A program made the position numbers and the translations under genes. From Roseibacillus ishigakijimensis (GTDB lineage Bacteria > Verrucomicrobiota > Verrucomicrobiia > Verrucomicrobiales > Akkermansiaceae), in assembly GCF_016595415.1 (NCBI RefSeq), contig NZ_JAENIO010000044.1, forward strand, positions 1 to 34,621: DNA of 34,621 nt, written 5' to 3'. A model generated the notes under the pieces. The model was not told where the DNA came from, searched no databases, and saw only the letters and a list, made by a program, of their open reading frames with translations. Within the stretch, counting starts at the first letter, position 1; every line of letters starts with the position of its first letter. Of the stretch, positions 13,685 through 22,621 are shown in pieces.

Positions 13685-13716
13685 AAAAAACGCCTCCGCC
13701 GGAAAGGGCGGAGGCG
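13685..13716 (-). terminator. Rho-independent terminator of the giant repeat-protein gene
   Basis: A perfect 10-bp GC-rich stem (CGCCTCCGCC at 13691-13700 with GGCGGAGGCG at 13707-13716, 6-base loop) is followed on the minus strand by six Ts (13690-13685). It lies 28 bases after the stop codon at 13745. There is no T-run on the plus-strand side, so it serves mainly the minus-strand gene. Confidence 0.87.
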
Positions 13717-13744
13717 TCGGGATTTCAACCTGCGAAAGAAGGCA

Positions 13745-16099
13745 TCAGGGGAGTTCGCTGAGGCGGTAGAAGGCCTTTTCGGCGGGAGGAGAGAGGTCGC
13801 TCAGGCTTTCGCTGCTTCCGGTGGGGGAGAAGGCGTCACCGAGCGGAGTGAATGTGTTCAAGCCCGGGGAGCTGATCATCCACTGGTAATTTTTTTCCGG
13901 ATCCAGCCCGCTGTAAGTGACTTGGAAGGTCCCTTCGGTGTAGTCCGAGGAGATGATTTCGATTCCTTCGCCCATGGCGACCGGGGAGCCGAGCACAAGG
14001 CTGGCAATGGCGGTGCGCTGGTATTGTCCCAGATAGAGATCCTGATGGCTGCCTGCAGGTCCCACCTGACCGTAGCTGTGGAAGTGTCCACTGCTGCCAA
14101 TCACCGCGTGGGGCAGGAGGTCCGTGTCGGGATTGCCGGAGGCAACCGAGAGAATCCGGGAGTTGTTGAAGTCGTTGTTCGCCGCTGCTGAGAGCACGAA
14201 GCCATCGTTATTCGTGATCTCGTAGTCCAGCTCCAAAGCGGTCGCGGGTGCGGTCTCGGTGCTGCCGATGGCAAGGCTGGCGGCGATTTGCGAGACATTG
14301 CTGAGCGCAAGCTGACTGTAGGCGTAGGAGAGCGCGGTGAGACCGGGATCGCTGCTGACCTCAAAGACTCCTTCCGTGGCGGAGGGGTTGTGTAGGTAGA
14401 AGACAGTTGCGGTCTGGGCTCCCACTCCGGGATCCTGAGCATGCAAGGCGGTCATAGCCTGCCCGGCAAAGGTTGCGGTGGGCAAGGCTCCATTGCCGCC
14501 GATTCCTTCCGCCGTGAAGAACAAAGCCACGAAATTCCCGCCGTTCAGAGCGAAGGATGCGCTGGTGAAGATGACTCCGGTGTCACTATTACTGAATGCC
14601 TCGTTGGCAGTGAGGCCCGCTGCAGAATTGGTCTCGGTGATGAAGTTCTCAGGGAAGAGGGCTCCATCATTGGGATCCGTGCCGACTGCGAGCTCGGTAG
14701 CATCGCTGAAGCCGTCTCCATCGCCATCTTCACTCAGAGGGTCGCTGCCAGCAGTGACTTCTTCTCCATCGAGGAGTCCGTCGGCGTCACTGTCAGCCAA
14801 GAGGGGGTCTGTCAGGGTGGTGTTGATTTCTTCTGCGTCGGTCAGTCCGTCATTATCACTATCGGCCGAGGTGGGGTTCGTGCTCGCAAGAAGCTCCTCC
14901 GCATTGGTGAGGTTATCGCTATCGGGATCGCCCGAACCACCTTGATCGCCCGAGCCGTCAGTGGGATCGAGGCCGTTGAGGATTTCCCAGCTATCGGAAA
15001 GACCATCGGAATCGGTATCACTGGAGAGAGCGTTGGTGATGAAGCCATCGTTGCCGGCCGTCACTTCCTCGGCGTCACCAATGCCATCCGCGTCCGAGTC
15101 CGCGACCAGAGGCAGGGTGTTGTGGGTGTTGATTTCTTCCCCGTCGGTGAGCCCGTCTCCGTCACTGTCGGGGACATTGGGATCAGTGCCTGCGGTTTCT
15201 TCTTGCTCATTGCTGGCGAGATCGCTGTCCGGATCGCCGGAACCATTCTGAGGGGTGAGGTCGCTTTCTTCAATCGTCCCACTGGCATCACCAAAGTGTT
15301 CGTCTTCCCAGAAATCATTCAGCAGGTCGCTGTCCTGGTCATTCACGGAAGCCACCCCAAAGGCCAGAGTGGCGACGGCCGTGCGTTGATACTGCCCCAG
15401 GTAGCCATCGAACTGCTCTCCGGCGGATTCGATCCGGCCAATGGGGTGGAAATGTCCACTGGAGCCGACGGTGACAAAGTCCAAGAGGCTGGAATTGGCG
15501 TTTCCGTAGGCTAAGGAGAGCGGGCGCCCTCCGTTGTGGTCGTTATTGACGGCGGCAGTGATGACAAAGCCATTGTCAGTCGCGGTGGTGTAGCTGACCT
15601 CCAGAGGGATGTCGGCGGAGTTGGTGGTGCTTCCCACCGTGTCTTGACCCGCAATCCCGGGGGCCCCAGAGAGCGAAATCGCGCTATAGGCCCACGTGAT
15701 GTTCGTGAGGTTGCTATCGGTGAACACTTCAAAGATTCCTTCCGTGCTGTCGGGATTGATCAGGTAGAAGATCGAGGCTCCTTGTGCACCGAGACCTGAA
15801 TCCGTGGCTGAGACCGCGTTCATCACTTGTCCATCGAAGGTGGCGATGAGATTGTCGGTTTTGTCGGTCAAGTTCTCGGTGGTGAGGACCAGGGCCACGG
15901 CATTTCCTCTCTGGAGGTCAAAAGATTCCGAGCTGAACAGGAGCCCCGATTCTCCAGTGGAGACTTCCGCTTGAAAGACGCCGGGCGCGGTAGCTGCGAT
16001 GGTCAGGTAGCCAGCCGTCGGGGATCTCTTCTGCCGAGCTGGGGTCAGTGCCTTTGGCGACCTCAAAGGGATCGGAGAAACTATCGCCATCCGAGTCAC
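13745..16099 (-). CDS. Giant secreted calcium-repeat protein, C-terminal part (after frameshift)
   Basis: This frame continues the protein begun at 17354; the codons before ~16020 are out-of-frame and not a real start. In the numbering from 16099, residues ~28-250 and ~485-706 are two copies of one domain, each with LLFSSESFDL or VIFTSASFAL near its start, an ATFxGQxM strand, FYLxNP, an NND(H/F)N turn and the signature GSSGHFH (212-218 and 668-674) followed by YLGQYQRTA. Residues ~252-482 carry about eight thrombospondin type 3-like calcium repeats (DSDGDGLTDGEE type). Residues ~715-784 are a C-terminal module ending FYRLSELP, with SGLDPEKNYQW and FTPLGD. The same GSSGHFH domain forms the whole PEP-CTERM protein at 18276. 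Likely a cell-surface or exported adhesion/matrix protein; function inferred only. Confidence 0.8.
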   Translation of the reverse strand: MTRMAIVSPIPLRSPKALTPARQKRSPTAGYLTIAATAPGVFQAEVSTGESGLLFSSESFDLQRGNAVALVLTTENLTDKTDNLIATFDGQVMNAVSATDSGLGAQGASIFYLINPDSTEGIFEVFTDSNLTNITWAYSAISLSGAPGIAGQDTVGSTTNSADIPLEVSYTTATDNGFVITAAVNNDHNGGRPLSLAYGNANSSLLDFVTVGSSGHFHPIGRIESAGEQFDGYLGQYQRTAVATLAFGVASVNDQDSDLLNDFWEDEHFGDASGTIEESDLTPQNGSGDPDSDLASNEQEETAGTDPNVPDSDGDGLTDGEEINTHNTLPLVADSDADGIGDAEEVTAGNDGFITNALSSDTDSDGLSDSWEILNGLDPTDGSGDQGGSGDPDSDNLTNAEELLASTNPTSADSDNDGLTDAEEINTTLTDPLLADSDADGLLDGEEVTAGSDPLSEDGDGDGFSDATELAVGTDPNDGALFPENFITETNSAAGLTANEAFSNSDTGVIFTSASFALNGGNFVALFFTAEGIGGNGALPTATFAGQAMTALHAQDPGVGAQTATVFYLHNPSATEGVFEVSSDPGLTALSYAYSQLALSNVSQIAASLAIGSTETAPATALELDYEITNNDGFVLSAAANNDFNNSRILSVASGNPDTDLLPHAVIGSSGHFHSYGQVGPAGSHQDLYLGQYQRTAIASLVLGSPVAMGEGIEIISSDYTEGTFQVTYSGLDPEKNYQWMISSPGLNTFTPLGDAFSPTGSSESLSDLSPPAEKAFYRLSELP

Positions 16100-17354
16100 T
16101 CAGATTGGGATCGGTGATGAAGCCGTCCGTTCCGCTTTCAACTTCTTCTCCATCAAGAATGGAGTCGCCATCGCTGTCATCACTGAGCGGATTGGTGAGG
16201 TAAAAGTCGATTTCGTCGGTGTCGGTGAGGTTGTCGCCGTCACTATCCGCGTTTTTGGGGTCGGTGTTGAAGGTTTGCTCATCGAAGTTCTCCAAGCCAT
16301 CTCCATCTGGATCGCCGAAATCGCCGTTGTCTCCCTCAGCGCTGGTGGGATCGAGATCGTAGGTGATTTCCCAGAGGTCGAGGAGGAGATCGCCGTCGCT
16401 ATCTTCACTGAGTGGATCGGTCTGGAAGCCATCGGAACCGGCGAGGACTTCCTCGCCATCCAACAGGCCGTCGTCATCGCTGTCGTCATCGAGCGGATCG
16501 GTGGGCAGGTTGCTGTAGGTATTCAGCGAACCGTCGATTTCCGGGCCATCATCGAGTCCATCTAGATCGGTGTCGGCAAAAAGCGGGTCGGTGCCGGCTG
16601 TTTCTTCCGCTTCGTTGTTGGCGCCATCTTCGTCCGGATCGTCGTCGCCATCATAGACTTCATAATCAGTGGGCTCGACCGTGCCACTGTTGTCGCCGAA
16701 GTAGGCATCTTCCCAGAGGTCGTCCAGGCCATCGTCATCGAGGTCGGGATCGGTGGCCACTTCGAAGAGCAGGCCATCCAATTGGGTGCGGTTGTTGGAG
16801 CCCGTCCAGTCCGCCCCATTGTCGAGAAAGATGGTGACGTTTCCCGAGGCATCGGTGGAGATGGTGCCGACATTGACCCCGACGAGTGAAGCCCCTGCAG
16901 AGGAAATGACTGTGCCTGGAAGCTGGGGATCTCCGGTGATGGTGGTGAGCTCGCCCGAGCTGGTGCCCCAAGAAAAGTCGTAGATGGCCCCTGTGTTGGA
17001 CACCGCTACGACCCAGAGAGCGTAGCTGGTGTCGGGTTGTAAGCCCGTGACCGCGAATTCGATCTCCGGTCCCGTATCGTCCTTGTCGTCAGCGCAGTTG
17101 CCATTGACGGTGATGCCGCTGTCGCTGCTGTCGGGAAAGGTCCAGCCGCTGGGACCGTCGATCCAGGTTCCGGTGGCATCGCCATTGGTGTCGGTGGCGG
17201 CGATGTCGAGATAGAGGCCGGTGCCGTTGCCCAACGCGGTCTCCACCTCGGCGACGGTGGCAGCAGAAAGTGGGGTGGCTAAAACGAAGGCCAGCCCGAA
17301 GCCGCTCCAAGTCAGCGGCGAGGGTGGGTTGATGGGTTTGTCAGGAGTTTTCAT
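15918..17354 (-). CDS. Giant secreted calcium-repeat protein, N-terminal part
   Basis: The ATG at 17354 starts a protein with a signal-like segment (hydrophobic residues ~16-31, LATPLSAA). It is followed by a beta-sandwich, fibronectin III-like region (~35-200, with FAVTGLQPDTSYALWVVAVS). About nine aspartate-rich thrombospondin type 3-like repeats follow (~201-437, for example DSDDDGLLDGEEV), which should bind calcium and form a stiff stalk. Coding sense ends at about residue 445 (AEEIP): beyond that this frame becomes Arg/Ser-rich nonsense (to residue 478), while the next frame carries on with YLTIAATAPG. The switch sits at a run of four Cs on the coding strand (16020-16023). Removing one C joins both parts into about 1202 residues. 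Confidence 0.78.
   Translation of the reverse strand: MKTPDKPINPPSPLTWSGFGLAFVLATPLSAATVAEVETALGNGTGLYLDIAATDTNGDATGTWIDGPSGWTFPDSSDSGITVNGNCADDKDDTGPEIEFAVTGLQPDTSYALWVVAVSNTGAIYDFSWGTSSGELTTITGDPQLPGTVISSAGASLVGVNVGTISTDASGNVTIFLDNGADWTGSNNRTQLDGLLFEVATDPDLDDDGLDDLWEDAYFGDNSGTVEPTDYEVYDGDDDPDEDGANNEAEETAGTDPLFADTDLDGLDDGPEIDGSLNTYSNLPTDPLDDDSDDDGLLDGEEVLAGSDGFQTDPLSEDSDGDLLLDLWEITYDLDPTSAEGDNGDFGDPDGDGLENFDEQTFNTDPKNADSDGDNLTDTDEIDFYLTNPLSDDSDGDSILDGEEVESGTDGFITDPNLSDSDGDSFSDPFEVAKGTDPSSAEEIPDGWLPDHRSYRARRLSSGSLHWRIGAPVQLGIF
16020..16023 (-). other. Frameshift point (CCCC run) in the giant gene
   Basis: The coding strand reads ATC-CCC-GAC in the upstream frame. With one C fewer it reads ATC-CCG-ACG-GCT-GGC-TAC and continues directly into the downstream domain. 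Total distance 17354-13745 is 3610 bases, one more than a multiple of three, which agrees with a single extra base. It could be a mutation, a homopolymer sequencing error, or a +1 shift on CCC. Confidence 0.75.
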
Positions 17355-17438
17355 GAGAAGAGAGAAGAGAATTCTCAGTCCCGTTTCGGGAGCCGAAAGG
17401 GTCTCGTGACAAGATGGTCAAGGCCATGAAGATTGGCC

Positions 17439-17448
17439 ATAGTCCGAA
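17439..17448 (-). promoter_or_regulatory. Shared motif TTCGGACTAT upstream of the giant gene
   Basis: TTCGGACTAT on the coding strand ends 84 bases before the ATG at 17354. The identical 10-mer occurs in the same orientation 76 bases before the PEP-CTERM gene. It is a candidate binding site for one of the adjacent response regulators. In between lies a palindrome TTTCGG-N3-CCGAAA (17384-17398) that repeats part of the motif. Confidence 0.4.
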
Positions 17449-17472
17449 AGTGATAGGAGGAGAGAAGTGAGT

Positions 17473-18123
17473 CTAGGAGGGCGAATTTTCCTGGGATTCG
17501 CGGTAAAGAAGAGCCGCTTGGGTGCGGCTGTTGACGTGCAACTTCTCGTAAATGTTCCGATTGTGGGCGCGCACGGTTTCCACAGAAATGGCGAGCTGTG
17601 CCGAGATGGCCTTGTTGCCCAAGCCGTCGGCCAATAGGCGCAAGATATCGGTTTCCCGTTCGGTGAGGTGGGCTTCCTTCAGGGGATCGCGGTAAGTGCC
17701 ATGAAAAGCCTCCACCACTCGGCGGGCGATTTCCGCGCTCATGGGCGCACCCCCGGCGAGGACGTCGCGAATGGCCTCTTCCATTTCTTCCATGGAAGAG
17801 CGTTTGAGGAGGTAGCCTGTCGCCCCGGCTTCCAGCGCAGCAAAGATTCTGTCGTGATCGCCATAGACGGTCACGATGAGGATGTGGATGGCTGGATGGG
17901 ATTTGCGCAGGCGGCGGGTTGTTTCGATCCCCGAGATGCCGGGCAGGTTGATATCCATGAGGACGACCTCGGGAGGTTTTTCCATGAAGGCCGCGAGAGC
18001 GTCCTCGCCACTGGGCCAGGTTCCCATGCAAACAAAGTCGGGGACGGCCTCCACGGCCGTGCGGAGGACCTCCGCCAGCTGGCGATTGTCCTCTACAATG
18101 GCGATGGAATGCGGCGAGCCCAT
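17473..18123 (-). CDS. NarL/LuxR-family response regulator (first paralogue)
   Basis: This 216-residue two-domain regulator has a receiver domain (residues ~5-122) with the acidic pair Glu11-Asp12, phosphoacceptor Asp57 in VVLMDINLPG, Thr85 and Lys107. A LuxR-type helix-turn-helix follows (~150-208) with LTERETDILRLLADGLGNKAIS and VETVRAHNRNIYEKL. The start at 18123 places the first receiver strand immediately after the N-terminus. It is closely similar to the regulator at 19114-19770 (shared GAPMSxEIARRVVxAF linker and receiver motifs), so one is a duplicate. No kinase gene adjoins it, and it is divergent from the PEP-CTERM gene. The 152-base gap between them carries several inverted repeats, so both genes may be under its control. 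Confidence 0.93.
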   Translation of the reverse strand: MGSPHSIAIVEDNRQLAEVLRTAVEAVPDFVCMGTWPSGEDALAAFMEKPPEVVLMDINLPGISGIETTRRLRKSHPAIHILIVTVYGDHDRIFAALEAGATGYLLKRSSMEEMEEAIRDVLAGGAPMSAEIARRVVEAFHGTYRDPLKEAHLTERETDILRLLADGLGNKAISAQLAISVETVRAHNRNIYEKLHVNSRTQAALLYRESQENSPS

Positions 18124-18185
18124 AAACTGACGGATGAGGATAGCGACCAGGGAGGCGCGGCCGCAAGGAGGTTTACCGCATCTGC

Positions 18186-18252
18186 CCTATTCGGACTATA
18201 GGCGGAAATGAAGGCAGGGGATAGAAGTGCTATCCTCCCAGACAGTTCTGTC
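18186..18252. promoter_or_regulatory. Cluster of inverted repeats and shared motif before the PEP-CTERM gene
   Basis: Four elements lie in 67 bases: the shared 10-mer TTCGGACTAT (18190-18199), nested in CCTAT-N7-ATAGG (18186-18202); then GGATAG-N5-CTATCC (18219-18235); then GACAG-N2-CTGTC (18241-18252). The CTAT half-site recurs. NarL-type regulators commonly bind such inverted heptamers, and two regulators of this family are the neighbours. Some of these could instead form hairpins in the 5' leader. Confidence 0.45.
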
Positions 18253-18275
18253 GGGATGAAACACGAAAAAATCCG

Positions 18276-19076
18276 ATGAAAACAAAATTCACTACTTCCT
18301 CCGCTGTCATCGCTCTCCTCGCCGGGAGTGCAGTCAGTGCCTCAGCCGCAATTTCGGTGGCCAATACTTTGGCTGGCTCTTCCGCTACGGTGAGTTCATT
18401 CGATGCCACGGGCCTTCTCTTTTCGACGGCACCCTTTGACTTGAACGGCGGAAATGTCGTGGCTCTCCTCGTGAGTTCGGAAGGAATTGGCGACAGCGGG
18501 GTGCGCCAGGCGACTTTTGCCGGACAGGTGATGAATGAAGTCTATGTCGAGGATAATGGAGCGGGTGACCAGACGGCGGCGATTTATTACCTCATCGATC
18601 CTGTGGCGACTTCGGGTAGTTTTGAGATGGTGCTGGATCCCAGCTATGGGCAGAGCGTGTCCTATGGAGTAAGTGCGATTTCGCTAGGAAACGTTTTGGG
18701 CTATGCCGATGAGAATACCAATCGCAGCACCTCTTCGGCCAATACAGCAGATTTTCCCGTCAGTTACACTGTGGCTACTCCTGGAAGCTTTGTCCTCGGG
18801 GTCGCCTCCAATAACGACTTTAATGGAGAGCGACCGCTCGGGGTGTCTTCGGGGAATCCCGACACTCCCTTGCTCCCTTTCGTGACCGAGGGGTCGAGCG
18901 GACATTTCCACACCTCCGGTTCGATCGATGCTCCCGGGACTTATACCGACAACTATTTCGGGCAATTCCAGCGCAATGCTCTGGCGACTCTCGCTTTTGA
19001 GGCTATTCCCGAGCCCTCTTCTGTTCTCTTGGGGGGCTTGGGAGTGTTCGCTCTCCTTGGTCGCCGTCTTGGGTGA
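18276..19076 (+). CDS. PEP-CTERM protein with GSSGHFH domain
   Basis: This 266-residue exported protein has a signal peptide (MKTKFTTSSAVIALLAGSAVSASA, cleavage near residue 24), one domain (~26-242) and a PEP-CTERM tail: PEP at 245-247, a hydrophobic stretch (SSVLLGGLGVFALLG) and terminal Arg-Arg. The tail is the sorting signal for an exosortase (not in this window), usually for export with exopolysaccharide. The domain is homologous to both repeated domains of the giant protein: LLFSTAPFDLNGGNVVALLV, ATFAGQVM, IYYLIDP, NNDFNGERPL, then GSSGHFH (206-212) and YFGQFQRNALATLAF. I do not recognise this domain as a described family. Neighbouring regulators suggest controlled expression. Confidence 0.88.
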   Translation: MKTKFTTSSAVIALLAGSAVSASAAISVANTLAGSSATVSSFDATGLLFSTAPFDLNGGNVVALLVSSEGIGDSGVRQATFAGQVMNEVYVEDNGAGDQTAAIYYLIDPVATSGSFEMVLDPSYGQSVSYGVSAISLGNVLGYADENTNRSTSSANTADFPVSYTVATPGSFVLGVASNNDFNGERPLGVSSGNPDTPLLPFVTEGSSGHFHTSGSIDAPGTYTDNYFGQFQRNALATLAFEAIPEPSSVLLGGLGVFALLGRRLG

Positions 19077-19090
19077 TGGGACGTTTTTTT
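19065..19090 (+). terminator. Possible terminator overlapping the PEP-CTERM stop codon
   Basis: A 6-bp stem with two G-U pairs (CGTCTT at 19065-19070 with GGGACG at 19078-19083) is followed by seven Ts (19084-19090). It includes the end of the coding sequence. The stem is weak, but the T-run and position fit. Confidence 0.4.
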
Positions 19091-19113
19091 CGCTGCGAGG
19101 GGAGGGTGACCGT

Positions 19114-19770
19114 TCATCCTGCTGTCGTGCGAATCCCGTCTCGATACTTCATCACTGCCTGGGTGCGGGTGGAGACTTCGAGTTTCTTGTAAATGCTCCG
19201 ATTGTGAACGCGGATGGTTTCGGCTGAGATGTCGAGGCGATCCGCGATTTCTTTGTTGGCGAGCCCTTCCGCCAAGAGAGCGAGGACTTCTTCTTCGCGG
19301 GGCGTCAGGTTGGCTGTCGCCACTCGATTGTTTCGCTGTTGGTAAAAGGCGTCTACCACGCGGCGGGCGATTTCCGGACTCATGGGGGCTCCCCCGGCGA
19401 GAACCTCGTGGATGGCTTGGCAGAGTTCATCCGGAGCGGCGCGCTTGAGAAGGTAGCCTGTCGCCCCGGCTTTGAGAGCAGCAAAAATCTTGTCGTGCTC
19501 GCCATAGACCGTGACCGTGATGATGAGAATGTCCGGCAGATGCTTTTTGAGCAGGGCGGTGGCTTCAATCCCGGAGAGGCCGGGGAGATTGATATCCATC
19601 AGAACCACTTTTGGCCGGAAGGCTTCAATTTTGCGCAGGCCTTCTTCTGCGGATTTCCAAACTCCGGCGCAGCGCAAGTGATCGCTGGAATCAATGACCA
19701 AACGGAGGGTTTCTCCCAGGTCGGAGTTGTCTTCGATAATGGCGACAGAGTGTTTCTCGGAGTCCTTCAT
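19114..19770 (-). CDS. NarL/LuxR-family response regulator (second paralogue)
   Basis: This 218-residue regulator has a receiver domain with Glu13-Asp14, phosphoacceptor Asp59 (VVLMDINLPG) and Lys109, and a C-terminal LuxR helix-turn-helix (LTPREEEVLALLAEGLANKEIA, AETIRVHNRSIYKKL). The ATG at 19770 overlaps the kinase stop codon by four bases (ATGA), which indicates translational coupling. The frame is open further upstream, but that part overlaps the kinase gene and is not receiver-like. It is the cognate partner of the propeller kinase and a paralogue of the regulator at 17473-18123. Confidence 0.94.
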   Translation of the reverse strand: MKDSEKHSVAIIEDNSDLGETLRLVIDSSDHLRCAGVWKSAEEGLRKIEAFRPKVVLMDINLPGLSGIEATALLKKHLPDILIITVTVYGEHDKIFAALKAGATGYLLKRAAPDELCQAIHEVLAGGAPMSPEIARRVVDAFYQQRNNRVATANLTPREEEVLALLAEGLANKEIADRLDISAETIRVHNRSIYKKLEVSTRTQAVMKYRDGIRTTAG

Positions 19771-22535
19771 GATTCGCTGGGTAGGGGCAGGGTGATGGCG
19801 ACTGTGGTGCCGCAGCCGGGCTCGCTCTCCAGGTGAAGTTGCCCGCCGCAATCAGTCATCCGGGTGCGCATATTTTTCAGACCATCTCCCAGTGAAGCCT
19901 GGCCGCCTTCGAATCCTTTGCCGTCATCGGCAATGTGGATGTGGAGGTTTTGGTCGGCAAAGGAAATGGTTAAGGTGACTTTAGTGGCATTGCCGTGTTT
20001 GACCGCGTTGTTGATGGCTTCGCGGGCAGTGAGGAGAATGTTGTGACGTCGTCGGGGACCGATGGTGGCCTCCGGTATGGTTTGGGGAATGTGGGTTTGG
20101 AGCGGAATGGCAACGACCTTGAGAAATTCCCGGGCAAAGAAGGCGAGATACTCCACCAGAGAGCGGAGACTGTCTTGGCTGGGATTGGTGGCCCAGACGA
20201 TTTCATCGAGAGTTCCCACCGCCCGCTTGGCCTTGATAGAAAGTTGCTCCAGCGGGCGTGGGCCCGAGGGGAGGACTTTCTCTCTTTTGGCCAGATCAGA
20301 CAGAATGGAAAGTTCAGTCAAACTGGCTCCGAGGTCGTCATGCAGATCGCGGGAGATGCGGGAGCGCTCATCCTCGAGGGCCCGCTCGAGCTGGATGATG
20401 GCGAGTCGGCGTTTGTGGCGGCGGCGGGCCAAGAGCCACCCCACGGCGAGGACAAAGAGGGCCAGCAGGCTGGCGGAGAGGGTGACAAACCAGCCTGTTT
20501 CCCAGAAATGGGGGCGGACTTCGACCGAAAGGACGGCTGGACGGGGAAGGGCAGAGCCATCGGCATTGATTGCGGTCACTTCCAGCCGGTAACGGCCGGG
20601 GGGAACAGCCGCATAGGTCACCTCCCGCTGGGGACCGAGCAGTTGGGGGTGGGGCTCAAGACCCGCGAGTCGCACGCGGTAGGACACTTCCTCCGGTGCA
20701 CTCAGACTGACCCCGGTAAAGCGGAATCCCAGGCTGCTACGTCCAGGGCCGGCCTGGAGAGGGTGGGCGCCCGGAATAGGCTGGGGAACGCCATTGACCA
20801 TCACGGGAGAGAAGTGGACATGGGGAGGCGTGCGGTTGAATACGAGGGTCTCCGGCTGCACTTGAGCCAGCCCCGCCGTGGTTGTGAACCAGATCGAACC
20901 ATCGGGAAGATCGAAGACCGCAGGCTGCCCTCCTCCCGTGCATTCGCGGGTCAACATCCCGTCATCTCGGTCGAAGCGGAGCCAAACTGGCCGGGGGCGA
21001 TGAGGAGGCATCGATTCCAACAAGGCCGAACGCGAGACCCGGAGGATACCGCCCAACGAGCCGAGCCAGAAAGCGTCCTCTCCCTGCAATCTCAGCCCGG
21101 TGAGACGCTTGTCCGGGAGCCCCGAGGCGCGACCAAAGTGATGGGTGTGACCATTTTTCCACACATACAATCCCGAACGAATGGTCGTGAACCAGACCTC
21201 CCGGGGAGAATACACGAGGATGGACGATATTTGAGGGTTGGGCACTTCTCCCACTGTGGCCAGGAGGTGAAATTTCTTGCCGTCGTAGTGGAACAGTCTT
21301 CCGTCGCGAGTGCCGAGGAAGAGCCCTCCCTCCTTGTCGGCAGTGAGGGTGAAGATGTCCCCTTCTTCCCCGGGGAGGTCAGGTCCCAGATTGACCACCG
21401 AATCGCCATCCCAGCGGAACAGGTTGCGCCGGCCAGCCAGCCAGATATTTCCTGCGCTTTCCTCCGCCAAGGCATGGATTTTTCCCATCCCGGGCACGCG
21501 GCGAAAGACCGCTTCAAAGTCGTTCAGGGATTCATCCCATTGAAAGACCGAGGCATTGCGCGAGGCGAACCAGAGTCGTCCTTGGCTATCTTCCAGCATG
21601 CTGACCACCACTCGTTCGGAGCCACTGGTGATGAGGGGCTGGGGAATGATGCGACCGTCTTGAATCCGCTCGACACTGCCTTCCGCCAACCCCAGCCACC
21701 ATTCTCCCGCCCGGGTGCGGAGTGCGGAGACCACTGCTTTCTGATAGGGCCCTTCCGCCGTGGTGAGCGCCGTCACTCTTTGTGGACGCACTCGCACCAG
21801 ACCTTGGCTGCGGCTGGCAATCCAGAGGTTGCCTTCCAAGTCCTCTAAGAAATCGCGTGCGAGGAGGTTGTTGTCGAACTCGTCCACTTCTCCACGGTGT
21901 TGGCCGCTTGCATTTTGAAACTGCAGGGCCCCTTGGTTCACGGACCAAAGGTCTCCTCGGCGGGTGGTCAACTGCGTGGGTGGAAGGGTATTGTCCGCAC
22001 GCCCTCGGGCCAAGGACTGGAGCCGATCTTTGTCGTTGCTGGCTTTGAGCTGGCTGCTTGGTTGCTCCACCATCCGGGCGGTTTCTCCATCCCAGTGCCA
22101 AAGCTGTTCCCTGCGGACGAAATAGGTGTTTTCCTGATGATGGAAAAGTCGGGTGATCCGGCCTGAGTCGCCGTGCTCGTAGTCTTCGATTTCGCACACG
22201 AGGCTGTCCCCCTGGAGCCGAAAAAGGCCGTGCCGATTGGTCGAGAGCCAGACTTCCCCGTGGCCCGGGGTAAAGACGCGAAAAAAATCGAGCGGACGGC
22301 CCTGCCAGTCACCGCTTGCTGGAATGGTCGTGAATTCCAAGCCGTCGAAGCGCTCCAAACCTTCAGCGGTCGCGATCCAGAGATAACCGTCTTGGGTTTG
22401 GCCCAGGGACCGGACGATGCCACCCGCCAAGCCTTCATCGGCCTTCCAAGTGCGAACCAGAAAGCGGGCGCTCTTCTCCGTCTCCACCGCTCCGAGCGCG
22501 GTCGTGAGGGCGAGAAGGAGGCACAGAATCTTCAT
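19767..22535 (-). CDS. Two-component propeller sensor histidine kinase
   Basis: This 922-residue kinase has a signal peptide (MKILCLLLALTTALGAVE) and a large periplasmic region of beta-propeller repeats (~25-580, repeated 'G-x-L/I-W-x-A/G-T/S' blades such as DGYLWIATAEGLERFDG and EGNLWIASRSQGLVRV). A Y_Y_Y-type domain follows (~595-675, ending RYRLEVTAINADG), then one membrane helix (~682-704). The HisKA_3 dimerisation domain carries RISRDLHDDLGASL (phosphorylated His732), and the C-terminal ATPase has an N-box (EAINNAVKHG, ~839-848) and DDGKGF (~870-875). This architecture resembles the sensors of polysaccharide-use systems in Bacteroidota, but here the HisKA_3/NarL type is used. The ligand is unknown; it is coupled to the regulator at 19114. 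Confidence 0.95.
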   Translation of the reverse strand: MKILCLLLALTTALGAVETEKSARFLVRTWKADEGLAGGIVRSLGQTQDGYLWIATAEGLERFDGLEFTTIPASGDWQGRPLDFFRVFTPGHGEVWLSTNRHGLFRLQGDSLVCEIEDYEHGDSGRITRLFHHQENTYFVRREQLWHWDGETARMVEQPSSQLKASNDKDRLQSLARGRADNTLPPTQLTTRRGDLWSVNQGALQFQNASGQHRGEVDEFDNNLLARDFLEDLEGNLWIASRSQGLVRVRPQRVTALTTAEGPYQKAVVSALRTRAGEWWLGLAEGSVERIQDGRIIPQPLITSGSERVVVSMLEDSQGRLWFASRNASVFQWDESLNDFEAVFRRVPGMGKIHALAEESAGNIWLAGRRNLFRWDGDSVVNLGPDLPGEEGDIFTLTADKEGGLFLGTRDGRLFHYDGKKFHLLATVGEVPNPQISSILVYSPREVWFTTIRSGLYVWKNGHTHHFGRASGLPDKRLTGLRLQGEDAFWLGSLGGILRVSRSALLESMPPHRPRPVWLRFDRDDGMLTRECTGGGQPAVFDLPDGSIWFTTTAGLAQVQPETLVFNRTPPHVHFSPVMVNGVPQPIPGAHPLQAGPGRSSLGFRFTGVSLSAPEEVSYRVRLAGLEPHPQLLGPQREVTYAAVPPGRYRLEVTAINADGSALPRPAVLSVEVRPHFWETGWFVTLSASLLALFVLAVGWLLARRRHKRRLAIIQLERALEDERSRISRDLHDDLGASLTELSILSDLAKREKVLPSGPRPLEQLSIKAKRAVGTLDEIVWATNPSQDSLRSLVEYLAFFAREFLKVVAIPLQTHIPQTIPEATIGPRRRHNILLTAREAINNAVKHGNATKVTLTISFADQNLHIHIADDGKGFEGGQASLGDGLKNMRTRMTDCGGQLHLESEPGCGTTVAITLPLPSES

Positions 22536-22621
22536 GGCAGTCTTTCCATGCTAGGAGACTCGCGCTTCTTCCGGCGAGGAAATCTTCTAGTCCGTGTGGA
22601 GTAAGCTCCAAAAATTTTTCC

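Follow-up and report, generated by a model that had tools for sequence, protein, structure and literature searches.

A locus of the Verrucomicrobiota bacterium Roseibacillus ishigakijimensis, lying between positions 13,745 and 22,535 of contig NZ_JAENIO010000044.1, combines a propeller-bearing sensor histidine kinase and two NarL-type response regulators with two further proteins, a short PEP-CTERM protein and a giant repeat protein, which share a domain and whose genes carry the same promoter word. We interpret it as a self-contained glycan-response locus without SusD, in which a short anchored protein and a long one are built on one binding domain, and put the probability of this reading at just under one half (about 0.48). 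The kinase-regulator system is probably a sugar-sensing switch with a spare second regulator, and what the locus produces is more likely to bind or attack glycans than to constitute a matrix system in itself, because three of the six loci containing full-length relatives of the kinase neighbour lyases or glycosidases. The whole stretch analysed, hereafter the window, comprises 34,621 nucleotides and is contig C131 of a 192-contig draft genome (4.14 Mb, 95% complete); C numbers marked as own denote contigs of this genome, G numbers the genomes of relatives and L numbers fetched loci.

A promoter word and a recognition helix common to the locus

The sequence TTCGGACTAT is common to the promoters of the PEP-CTERM and giant genes, oriented alike with respect to the gene and starting 86 and 94 nt ahead of the respective ATG. 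The word TTCGGACTATRG is found at exactly two places in the genome, upstream of these two domain genes, with seven further places when one mismatch is allowed. The sequence CGGACTA also precedes the kinase gene, in the same sense as in the two domain-gene promoters, while a fourth copy of the window sits within the coding region of the giant; in 333 other upstream regions it is never found in sense and only twice in antisense. Two wider uses of the motif were tried and rejected: TTCGGACT, as a general promoter element, has 81 sites versus 78 for its reversed control, and CGGACTA is absent at six of the nine kinase loci examined (L039-L047), the single copies of L039, L043 and L045 lying inside called genes. 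No sigma-70 promoters were found between 13600 and 22700.

The two regulators, described as closely related in the initial annotation of this DNA, are indeed 56% identical over 205 aa; both exceed the cut-offs of PF00072 and PF00196, as expected for the NarL/FixJ type, and both keep the receiver Asp, Thr and Lys. Among 55 regulators compared, they alone carry HNR at the aligned position of the recognition helix, the other 53, all from relatives, featuring most commonly HLR or HLK (11 each), and they alone have VYG after the conserved Thr of the receiver. GATGY was discarded as a joint mark, being present in 5 of the 55, so that HNR and VYG only are particular to the pair. The promoter word and the helix, considered together, favour co-regulation of the two domain genes, and we infer from the sequences that the two regulators share a DNA target, possibly with separate inputs. 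Close relatives of these regulators were also seen at L135 (G028) and L136 (G018), with no kinase match nearby.

The shared domain and the proteins that carry it

The short protein, placed by the initial annotation on the opposite strand between the regulators, matches the PEP-CTERM family with 22.0 bits against a cut-off of 20.7 and has the features of an exosortase substrate, its N-terminal signal being read by eye; the genome contains one exosortase match. The shared domain, about 215 residues long, is present once in the short protein and twice in the giant; comparison of the giant's copies with that of the short protein gives identities of 46% and 44%, and with BLASTP E values of 9e-50 and 8e-49 this sharing is not due to chance. 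All three copies previously noted were thus recovered, and the GSSGHFH motif used to define them is invariant, but it is merely the best-conserved patch of a much longer domain. Beyond these copies the genome has no match at E<=1, and neither a Pfam family (E<=0.01) nor an NCBIfam domain covers the region.

Examined as a possible carbohydrate-binding module, the domain has no Pfam match, an all-beta predicted structure (mean pLDDT 73, pTM 0.80, low in residues 161-194) and no convincing fold match: the best Foldseek rows are PRD1-type coat proteins, with TM-scores of 0.19-0.27, the best Z in VIA-align 2 is 7.3, below the tool's level of meaning, and the sequences of solved structures gave no match at E<=1.

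The giant protein contains, as initially described, repeats and two copies of the domain, but lies in two overlapping frames rather than in a single open one: TSP3 sequence continues in one frame to about 16030, while the first domain copy begins in the other at about 16003. The change may be either a real frameshift or an assembly error. Its repeats match Pfam TSP3_bac and may form the calcium stalk originally proposed. The Fn3-like region at its C-terminus, with an ending of the ...FYRL type, has 43 matches in the genome, featuring a median open frame of 856 aa, versus 281 aa for the 39 PEP-CTERM matches, and ends 0-4 residues before the stop in all 11 matches examined, 7 of which are profile seeds. 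It is possibly a second C-terminal tag, or merely a common terminal fold. As a mark of all long partners it was rejected, the profile detecting it at the C-terminus of 4 out of 12, three of them seeds; many long partners end in F-x-R-L-like words.

The kinase and the company of its relatives

Reg_prop, Y_Y_Y, HisKA_3 and HATPase_c all exceed their Pfam cut-offs in one chain, which identifies a propeller sensor kinase and, together with the overlap of its gene with that of regulator 1, supports the coupled pair proposed earlier. The further claim, that only one kinase serves two regulators, holds for the called genes of the window, as scanned with a kinase profile built for this analysis, but not for the genome, where at least one more full-length relative is found on C116. 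Full-length relatives were obtained from own C116, G021, G009, G015, G001 and G087, each adjoining a NarL-type regulator; Reg_prop was checked, and present, in those of G009 and G015 C66. A polysaccharide lyase or glycosidase was recognised among the scanned neighbours at three of the six, in genomes G021 (RGL11, along with DUF2961 and a PATR repeat protein), G001 (GxGYxYP and GH2) and G087 (PL4). A CBM96 protein neighbours the C116 kinase, and PATR repeat proteins are also found beside the relatives of G009 and G015. In G015 the kinase relative and the only domain match of the genome lie about 11.5 kb apart on one contig. PF07980, the sole SusD model tried, has no match at E<=1e-3 in the window's genome, within its 95% completeness.

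The domain in other genomes

The domain was detected at E<=1e-3 in 3 of 115 other genomes among the relatives and, with a more inclusive profile, to which G015, G035 and G078 also contributed seeds, at E<=1e-5 in 8 of 386 other genomes of a phylum-wide draw. It occurs without these regulators in L048, G035 and G078 (20 kb seen of each) and in G313 and G294 (3.6 kb each), while the kinase-regulator pair occurs without the domain in own C116, G021, G009, G001 and G087. The search for the same gene set in related genomes, suggested by the initial annotation, was therefore negative; its corollary, that the association would then be chance, does not follow, because of the unique promoter word, the core in the kinase promoter, the shared helix change and the recurrence of short/long pairs beside regulators.

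In L048, a metagenome-assembled genome of the Verrucomicrobiia, the domain forms the C-terminal part of a 1495-aa secreted protein with GH115_C, encoded between GH31 and GH2 genes. G035 and G078 contain PEP-CTERM-like domain proteins beside extracytoplasmic function (ECF) sigma genes and SASA-esterase proteins, to which domain relatives are attached, a second short copy lying behind the first in G078; in G313 and G294 the domain proteins lie beside AraC-type genes. At all five loci with a short PEP-CTERM-like member of the family, a regulator gene adjoins it: a NarL response regulator, two ECF sigma factors, an AraC regulator and an AraC regulator with a periplasmic-binding-protein-like domain. 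The short members of the window, G035 and G294 have a PEP-CTERM Pfam match; in those of G078 and G313, which have none at E<=1e-3, the tail was read by eye. The AraC regulator with a periplasmic-binding-protein-like domain is encoded at L054 (62-2178), divergently from a PEP-CTERM gene of the family. The start of L050, which also contains PATR repeats and the domain, matches peptidase M66, and L050-L052 are giants with a region resembling that start, the scan covering L050 alone.

Short and long partners beyond the locus

PEP-CTERM matches number between 8 and 57 in the nine Verrucomicrobiota genomes counted. Out of 189 listed PEP-CTERM places (those of the relatives being the best 150 of 209), 86 were tried and 84 mapped, one lacking a locus and one a gene; they belong to four genomes, the window's own (39), G027 (24), G021 (19) and G015 (2). 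At 16 of the 84 genes, a neighbour within 10 kb matches the mature part at E<1e-4, the partner being at least 600 aa long in 8 cases and, in 10, at least 400 aa long and untagged. When fetched loci of the same genome were searched for non-neighbours, again 16 PEP-CTERM genes matched one, but only 3 matched one of at least 600 aa.

A response regulator or ECF gene is found within 5 kb at 9 of the 10 twin loci, versus 21 of the 74 other PEP-CTERM genes (Fisher p 3e-4) and 2 of 20 random control loci, drawn from the window's own genome only. The ECF, response regulator and kinase profiles used were seeded from twin loci among others, and the two G015 loci had been chosen because a regulator was near; without these and the window, the figures become 7 of 8 versus 20 of 73 (p 0.0016). 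Counts of FecR were not used, as the corresponding profile also included a beta-helix protein and a citrate-transporter-like protein.

In own C118 (L154, 3499-10069) an 829-aa protein with two domain copies is followed by ECF sigma and Ser/Thr kinase genes and then by a short PEP-CTERM protein with the same domain. The partners in G027 are a 1570-aa protein with 63% identity, near a two-component system (C221), and a 1053-aa protein with SASA, near an ECF sigma gene (C177); in G021 a 1286-aa sulfatase partner is accompanied by ECF sigma and FecR. A HisKA-type kinase is present at the twin locus of own C170. Propeller sensors, searched for at other twin loci, were not recovered: the kinases of own C112, G027 C221 and G015 C1 have HisKA_3 and HATPase matches (HisKA_3 below cut-off in G027 C221) but none to Reg_prop, that of C112 featuring Y_Y_Y at its cut-off and a laminin-G-like region.

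Some cases do not conform to the pattern. The G027 C181 pair has no response regulator or ECF gene within 5 kb. In own C112 (L133, 6708-13710), the genes of a HisKA_3 kinase and a regulator precede those of a short PEP-CTERM protein and an 848-aa TSP3/laminin-G-like secreted protein, an arrangement reminiscent of the locus, but these two proteins share no domain; it is a PEP-CTERM protein on another contig, C104, that shares one with the 848-aa protein.

Comparison with known systems

Taken singly, the parts of the locus are of known kinds. In Bacteroides, oligosaccharides are bound by sensors that contain Reg_prop and YYY parts, and the commonest regulators of polysaccharide utilisation loci (PULs) are ECF-sigma/anti-sigma or hybrid two-component systems (PMC3243724). 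The locus resembles these Bacteroidetes loci in having a propeller, YYY, a histidine kinase and a local regulator beside secreted genes, as do twin loci in mostly having a two-component or ECF regulator nearby. It differs from them in that kinase and regulator are separate proteins, the latter of NarL type, rather than a hybrid fusion, in the lack of the SusD match expected of a SusC/SusD-type PUL, and in the exosortase tag of its short surface protein; the kinases scanned at other twin loci, moreover, lack the propeller.

For Proteobacterial PEP-CTERM genes, PMC1569441 proposes control by a kinase/regulator pair (PrsK/PrsR), a conserved upstream word and sigma-54, PrsR being an NtrC-like sigma-54 activator with presumed sites before 99 of 167 such genes. 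The locus likewise has a histidine kinase, a response regulator and a conserved DNA word that precedes a PEP-CTERM gene. Its regulators are, in contrast, NarL-type, its site occurs just twice in the genome, and its kinase scores 15.1 bits (E 0.0064) with the PrsK model, far below the 300-bit cut-off, so that it is not a PrsK/PrsR system. The NCBIfam 'Choice-of-anchor' families combine one head domain with differing C-terminal anchors. The domain described here similarly occurs in differently ended proteins, but neither the short nor the long protein matched a model of these families, and both forms are found in one locus. No description of paired short and long domain-sharing proteins beside local regulators was found in open-access full text, subscription papers lying mostly outside this search.

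Layout of the locus

The coordinates of all features are collected in Table 1. The kinase and regulator 1 genes overlap by 4 nt (ATGA). The PEP-CTERM gene converges on regulator 1, with 37 bp between their stops and a terminator-like hairpin at this end, and diverges from regulator 2, from which it is separated by 152 bp; regulator 2 is followed, after a gap of 118 bp, by the giant gene (17354-13745).

Table 1. Features of the locus, in positions of the window
Feature	Position	Strand	Basis
Membrane sensor histidine kinase, 922 aa: hydrophobic N-terminus, Reg_prop propeller, Y_Y_Y, HisKA_3, HATPase_c	19767..22535	-	Pfam, translation
NarL-type response regulator 1; ATG at 19770 overlaps kinase stop (ATGA)	19114..19770	-	Pfam, overlap
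Short PEP-CTERM protein, 266 aa: hydrophobic N-terminus, shared domain, PEP-CTERM	18276..19076	+	PF07589 over cut-off
Shared domain, copy of the short protein	18345..19007	+	Alignments
Response regulator 2, NarL type, lacking a neighbouring kinase of its own	17473..18123	-	
Giant, upstream frame: hydrophobic N-terminus and TSP3 repeats	15918..17354	-	
Giant, downstream frame: domain, TSP3 repeats, domain, C-terminal Fn3-like region	13745..16099	-	
Reading-frame change in the giant	16000..16035	-	
Shared domain, first copy of the giant	15350..16003	-	BLASTP, alignment
Shared domain, second copy of the giant	13982..14647	-	BLASTP, alignment
C-terminal Fn3-like region, ending ...AFYRLSELP	13748..14002	-	43 genome matches at E<=0.01
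Putative binding site TTCGGACTATAG for a regulator, before the PEP-CTERM gene; forms half of an imperfect palindrome of 18 bp in the divergent promoter	18190..18201	+	
Putative binding site TTCGGACTATGG for a regulator, before the giant gene	17437..17448	-	
Candidate site core CGGACTA, 59 nt upstream of the kinase ATG	22588..22594	-	
Terminator-like hairpin where the PEP-CTERM gene ends	19065..19083	+	
Terminator-like hairpin (12 pairs) after the giant gene	13689..13718	-	

Weighing the interpretations

Several observations weigh against a glycan-response locus under common control. The assignment of glycan binding to the domain rests on the company it keeps, its fold matches being unconvincing, and a scan of neighbouring proteins revealed no recognisable lyase or glycosidase at the kinase loci of own C116, G009 and G015. 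The genomes compared do not conserve the exact gene set, and the giant gene is frame-shifted. Although a shared word of 10 or more bases, found in only 2.2% of 6000 random promoter pairs of the same genome, speaks for the site, these odds are post hoc, as the motif came from comparing the promoters; each of the two promoters also has a word in common with another of the 333 upstream regions, up to 12 bases long for one and up to 11 for the other, and the third site, that of the kinase, amounts to 7 bases. The alpha-1 stretches of the two regulators agree at only 4 of 14 residues, so that a single kinase driving both is doubtful. Trees leave their sisterhood undecided (AU p 0.51; support 61/88 in a 17-row tree), neither showing nor rejecting a recent tandem duplication. 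Our confidence was slightly lowered by the presence of lyases or glycosidases at only half of the kinase loci and by the lack of Reg_prop in the other twin kinases.

The surface or matrix system under a duplicated two-component output, as the initial annotation had it, was supported, as regards common control of the two domain genes, by the promoter word and the helix change; its output is the part from which our reading departs. An adhesion or matrix locus, with a domain that attaches to cells, matrix or a surface, TSP3 repeats that act as spacers and a sensor that reports surface contact or matrix state instead of a nutrient glycan, is unlikely. PEP-CTERM proteins are linked to exopolysaccharide and biofilm life (PMC1569441), the TSP3 stretches weakly match MtsD, a cohesion protein, and CglD, a gliding protein, and the best structural row of the domain is a collagen-binding domain, a match uninformative by the tool's own scale; the lyases and glycosidases beside the kinase relatives, and the esterase or sulfatase domains of long partners elsewhere, speak against it.

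It is improbable that the neighbourhood is accidental, the short and long genes having arisen by an everyday local duplication of a domain and lacking common control. The genome is indeed rich in two-component systems and PEP-CTERM genes, PEP-CTERM genes outside twin loci are often near a regulator too, and the lack of a conserved gene set and the domain shared between C104 and C112 would fit such a view. Against it stand the excess of regulators at twin loci and the promoter word unique to the two domain genes, along with regulators of the same clade, of which 8 out of 63, those of the window left out, have a listed PEP-CTERM gene at a distance of 5 kb or less, versus 2.2 expected (P 0.0013). 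The short copy of the domain is, besides, no closer to the giant's copies (44-46%) than to that of L048 (50%), and so the pair is not a fresh duplicate; by tree path its nearest relative is the L048 copy, in a tree that leaves a fork of four unsettled. Decay of the locus, with a real frameshift, a drifting leftover in regulator 2 and function retained by the kinase, regulator 1 and the short protein alone, would account for the two frames of the giant and the long branch of regulator 2 (0.71 versus 0.45 for regulator 1), but seems equally improbable: the downstream frame runs for 784 codons without a stop, regulator 2 keeps D57, T85, K107 and a full GerE domain, and in a 192-contig draft a sequence error is possible. 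On balance, what the initial annotation had observed was partly confirmed, and its interpretation partly supported.

Proposed mechanism and significance

In the glycan-response locus that we favour, the propeller would bind an oligosaccharide outside the inner membrane, as in the Bacteroides hybrid systems, and the kinase would phosphorylate regulator 1, which may then bind the CGGACTA-containing sites before the kinase, PEP-CTERM and giant genes and switch them on. Regulator 2 would bind the same site and tune or extend the response, possibly fed by another phosphate source. The short protein would be processed by the one exosortase of the genome and then displayed, while the long one would reach further out or be released, the common domain allowing both to bind the same ligand.

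More generally, and only tentatively, polysaccharide loci of Verrucomicrobiota lacking SusD might pair a short exosortase-sorted protein with a long secreted one, the latter with esterase, sulfatase or repeat regions, both built on one ligand-binding domain and controlled by a single local regulator whose class varies (two-component, ECF sigma or AraC); the long partners may bear the Fn3-like region as a second C-terminal tag. With a promoter word that is unique and an HNR helix common to both regulators, the regulatory step lends itself to testing. The Verrucomicrobiota genomes seen contain many PEP-CTERM proteins, mostly without an assigned role, and a rule linking short tagged protein, long partner and regulator would, if true, provide many of them with a testable function and a likely inducer.

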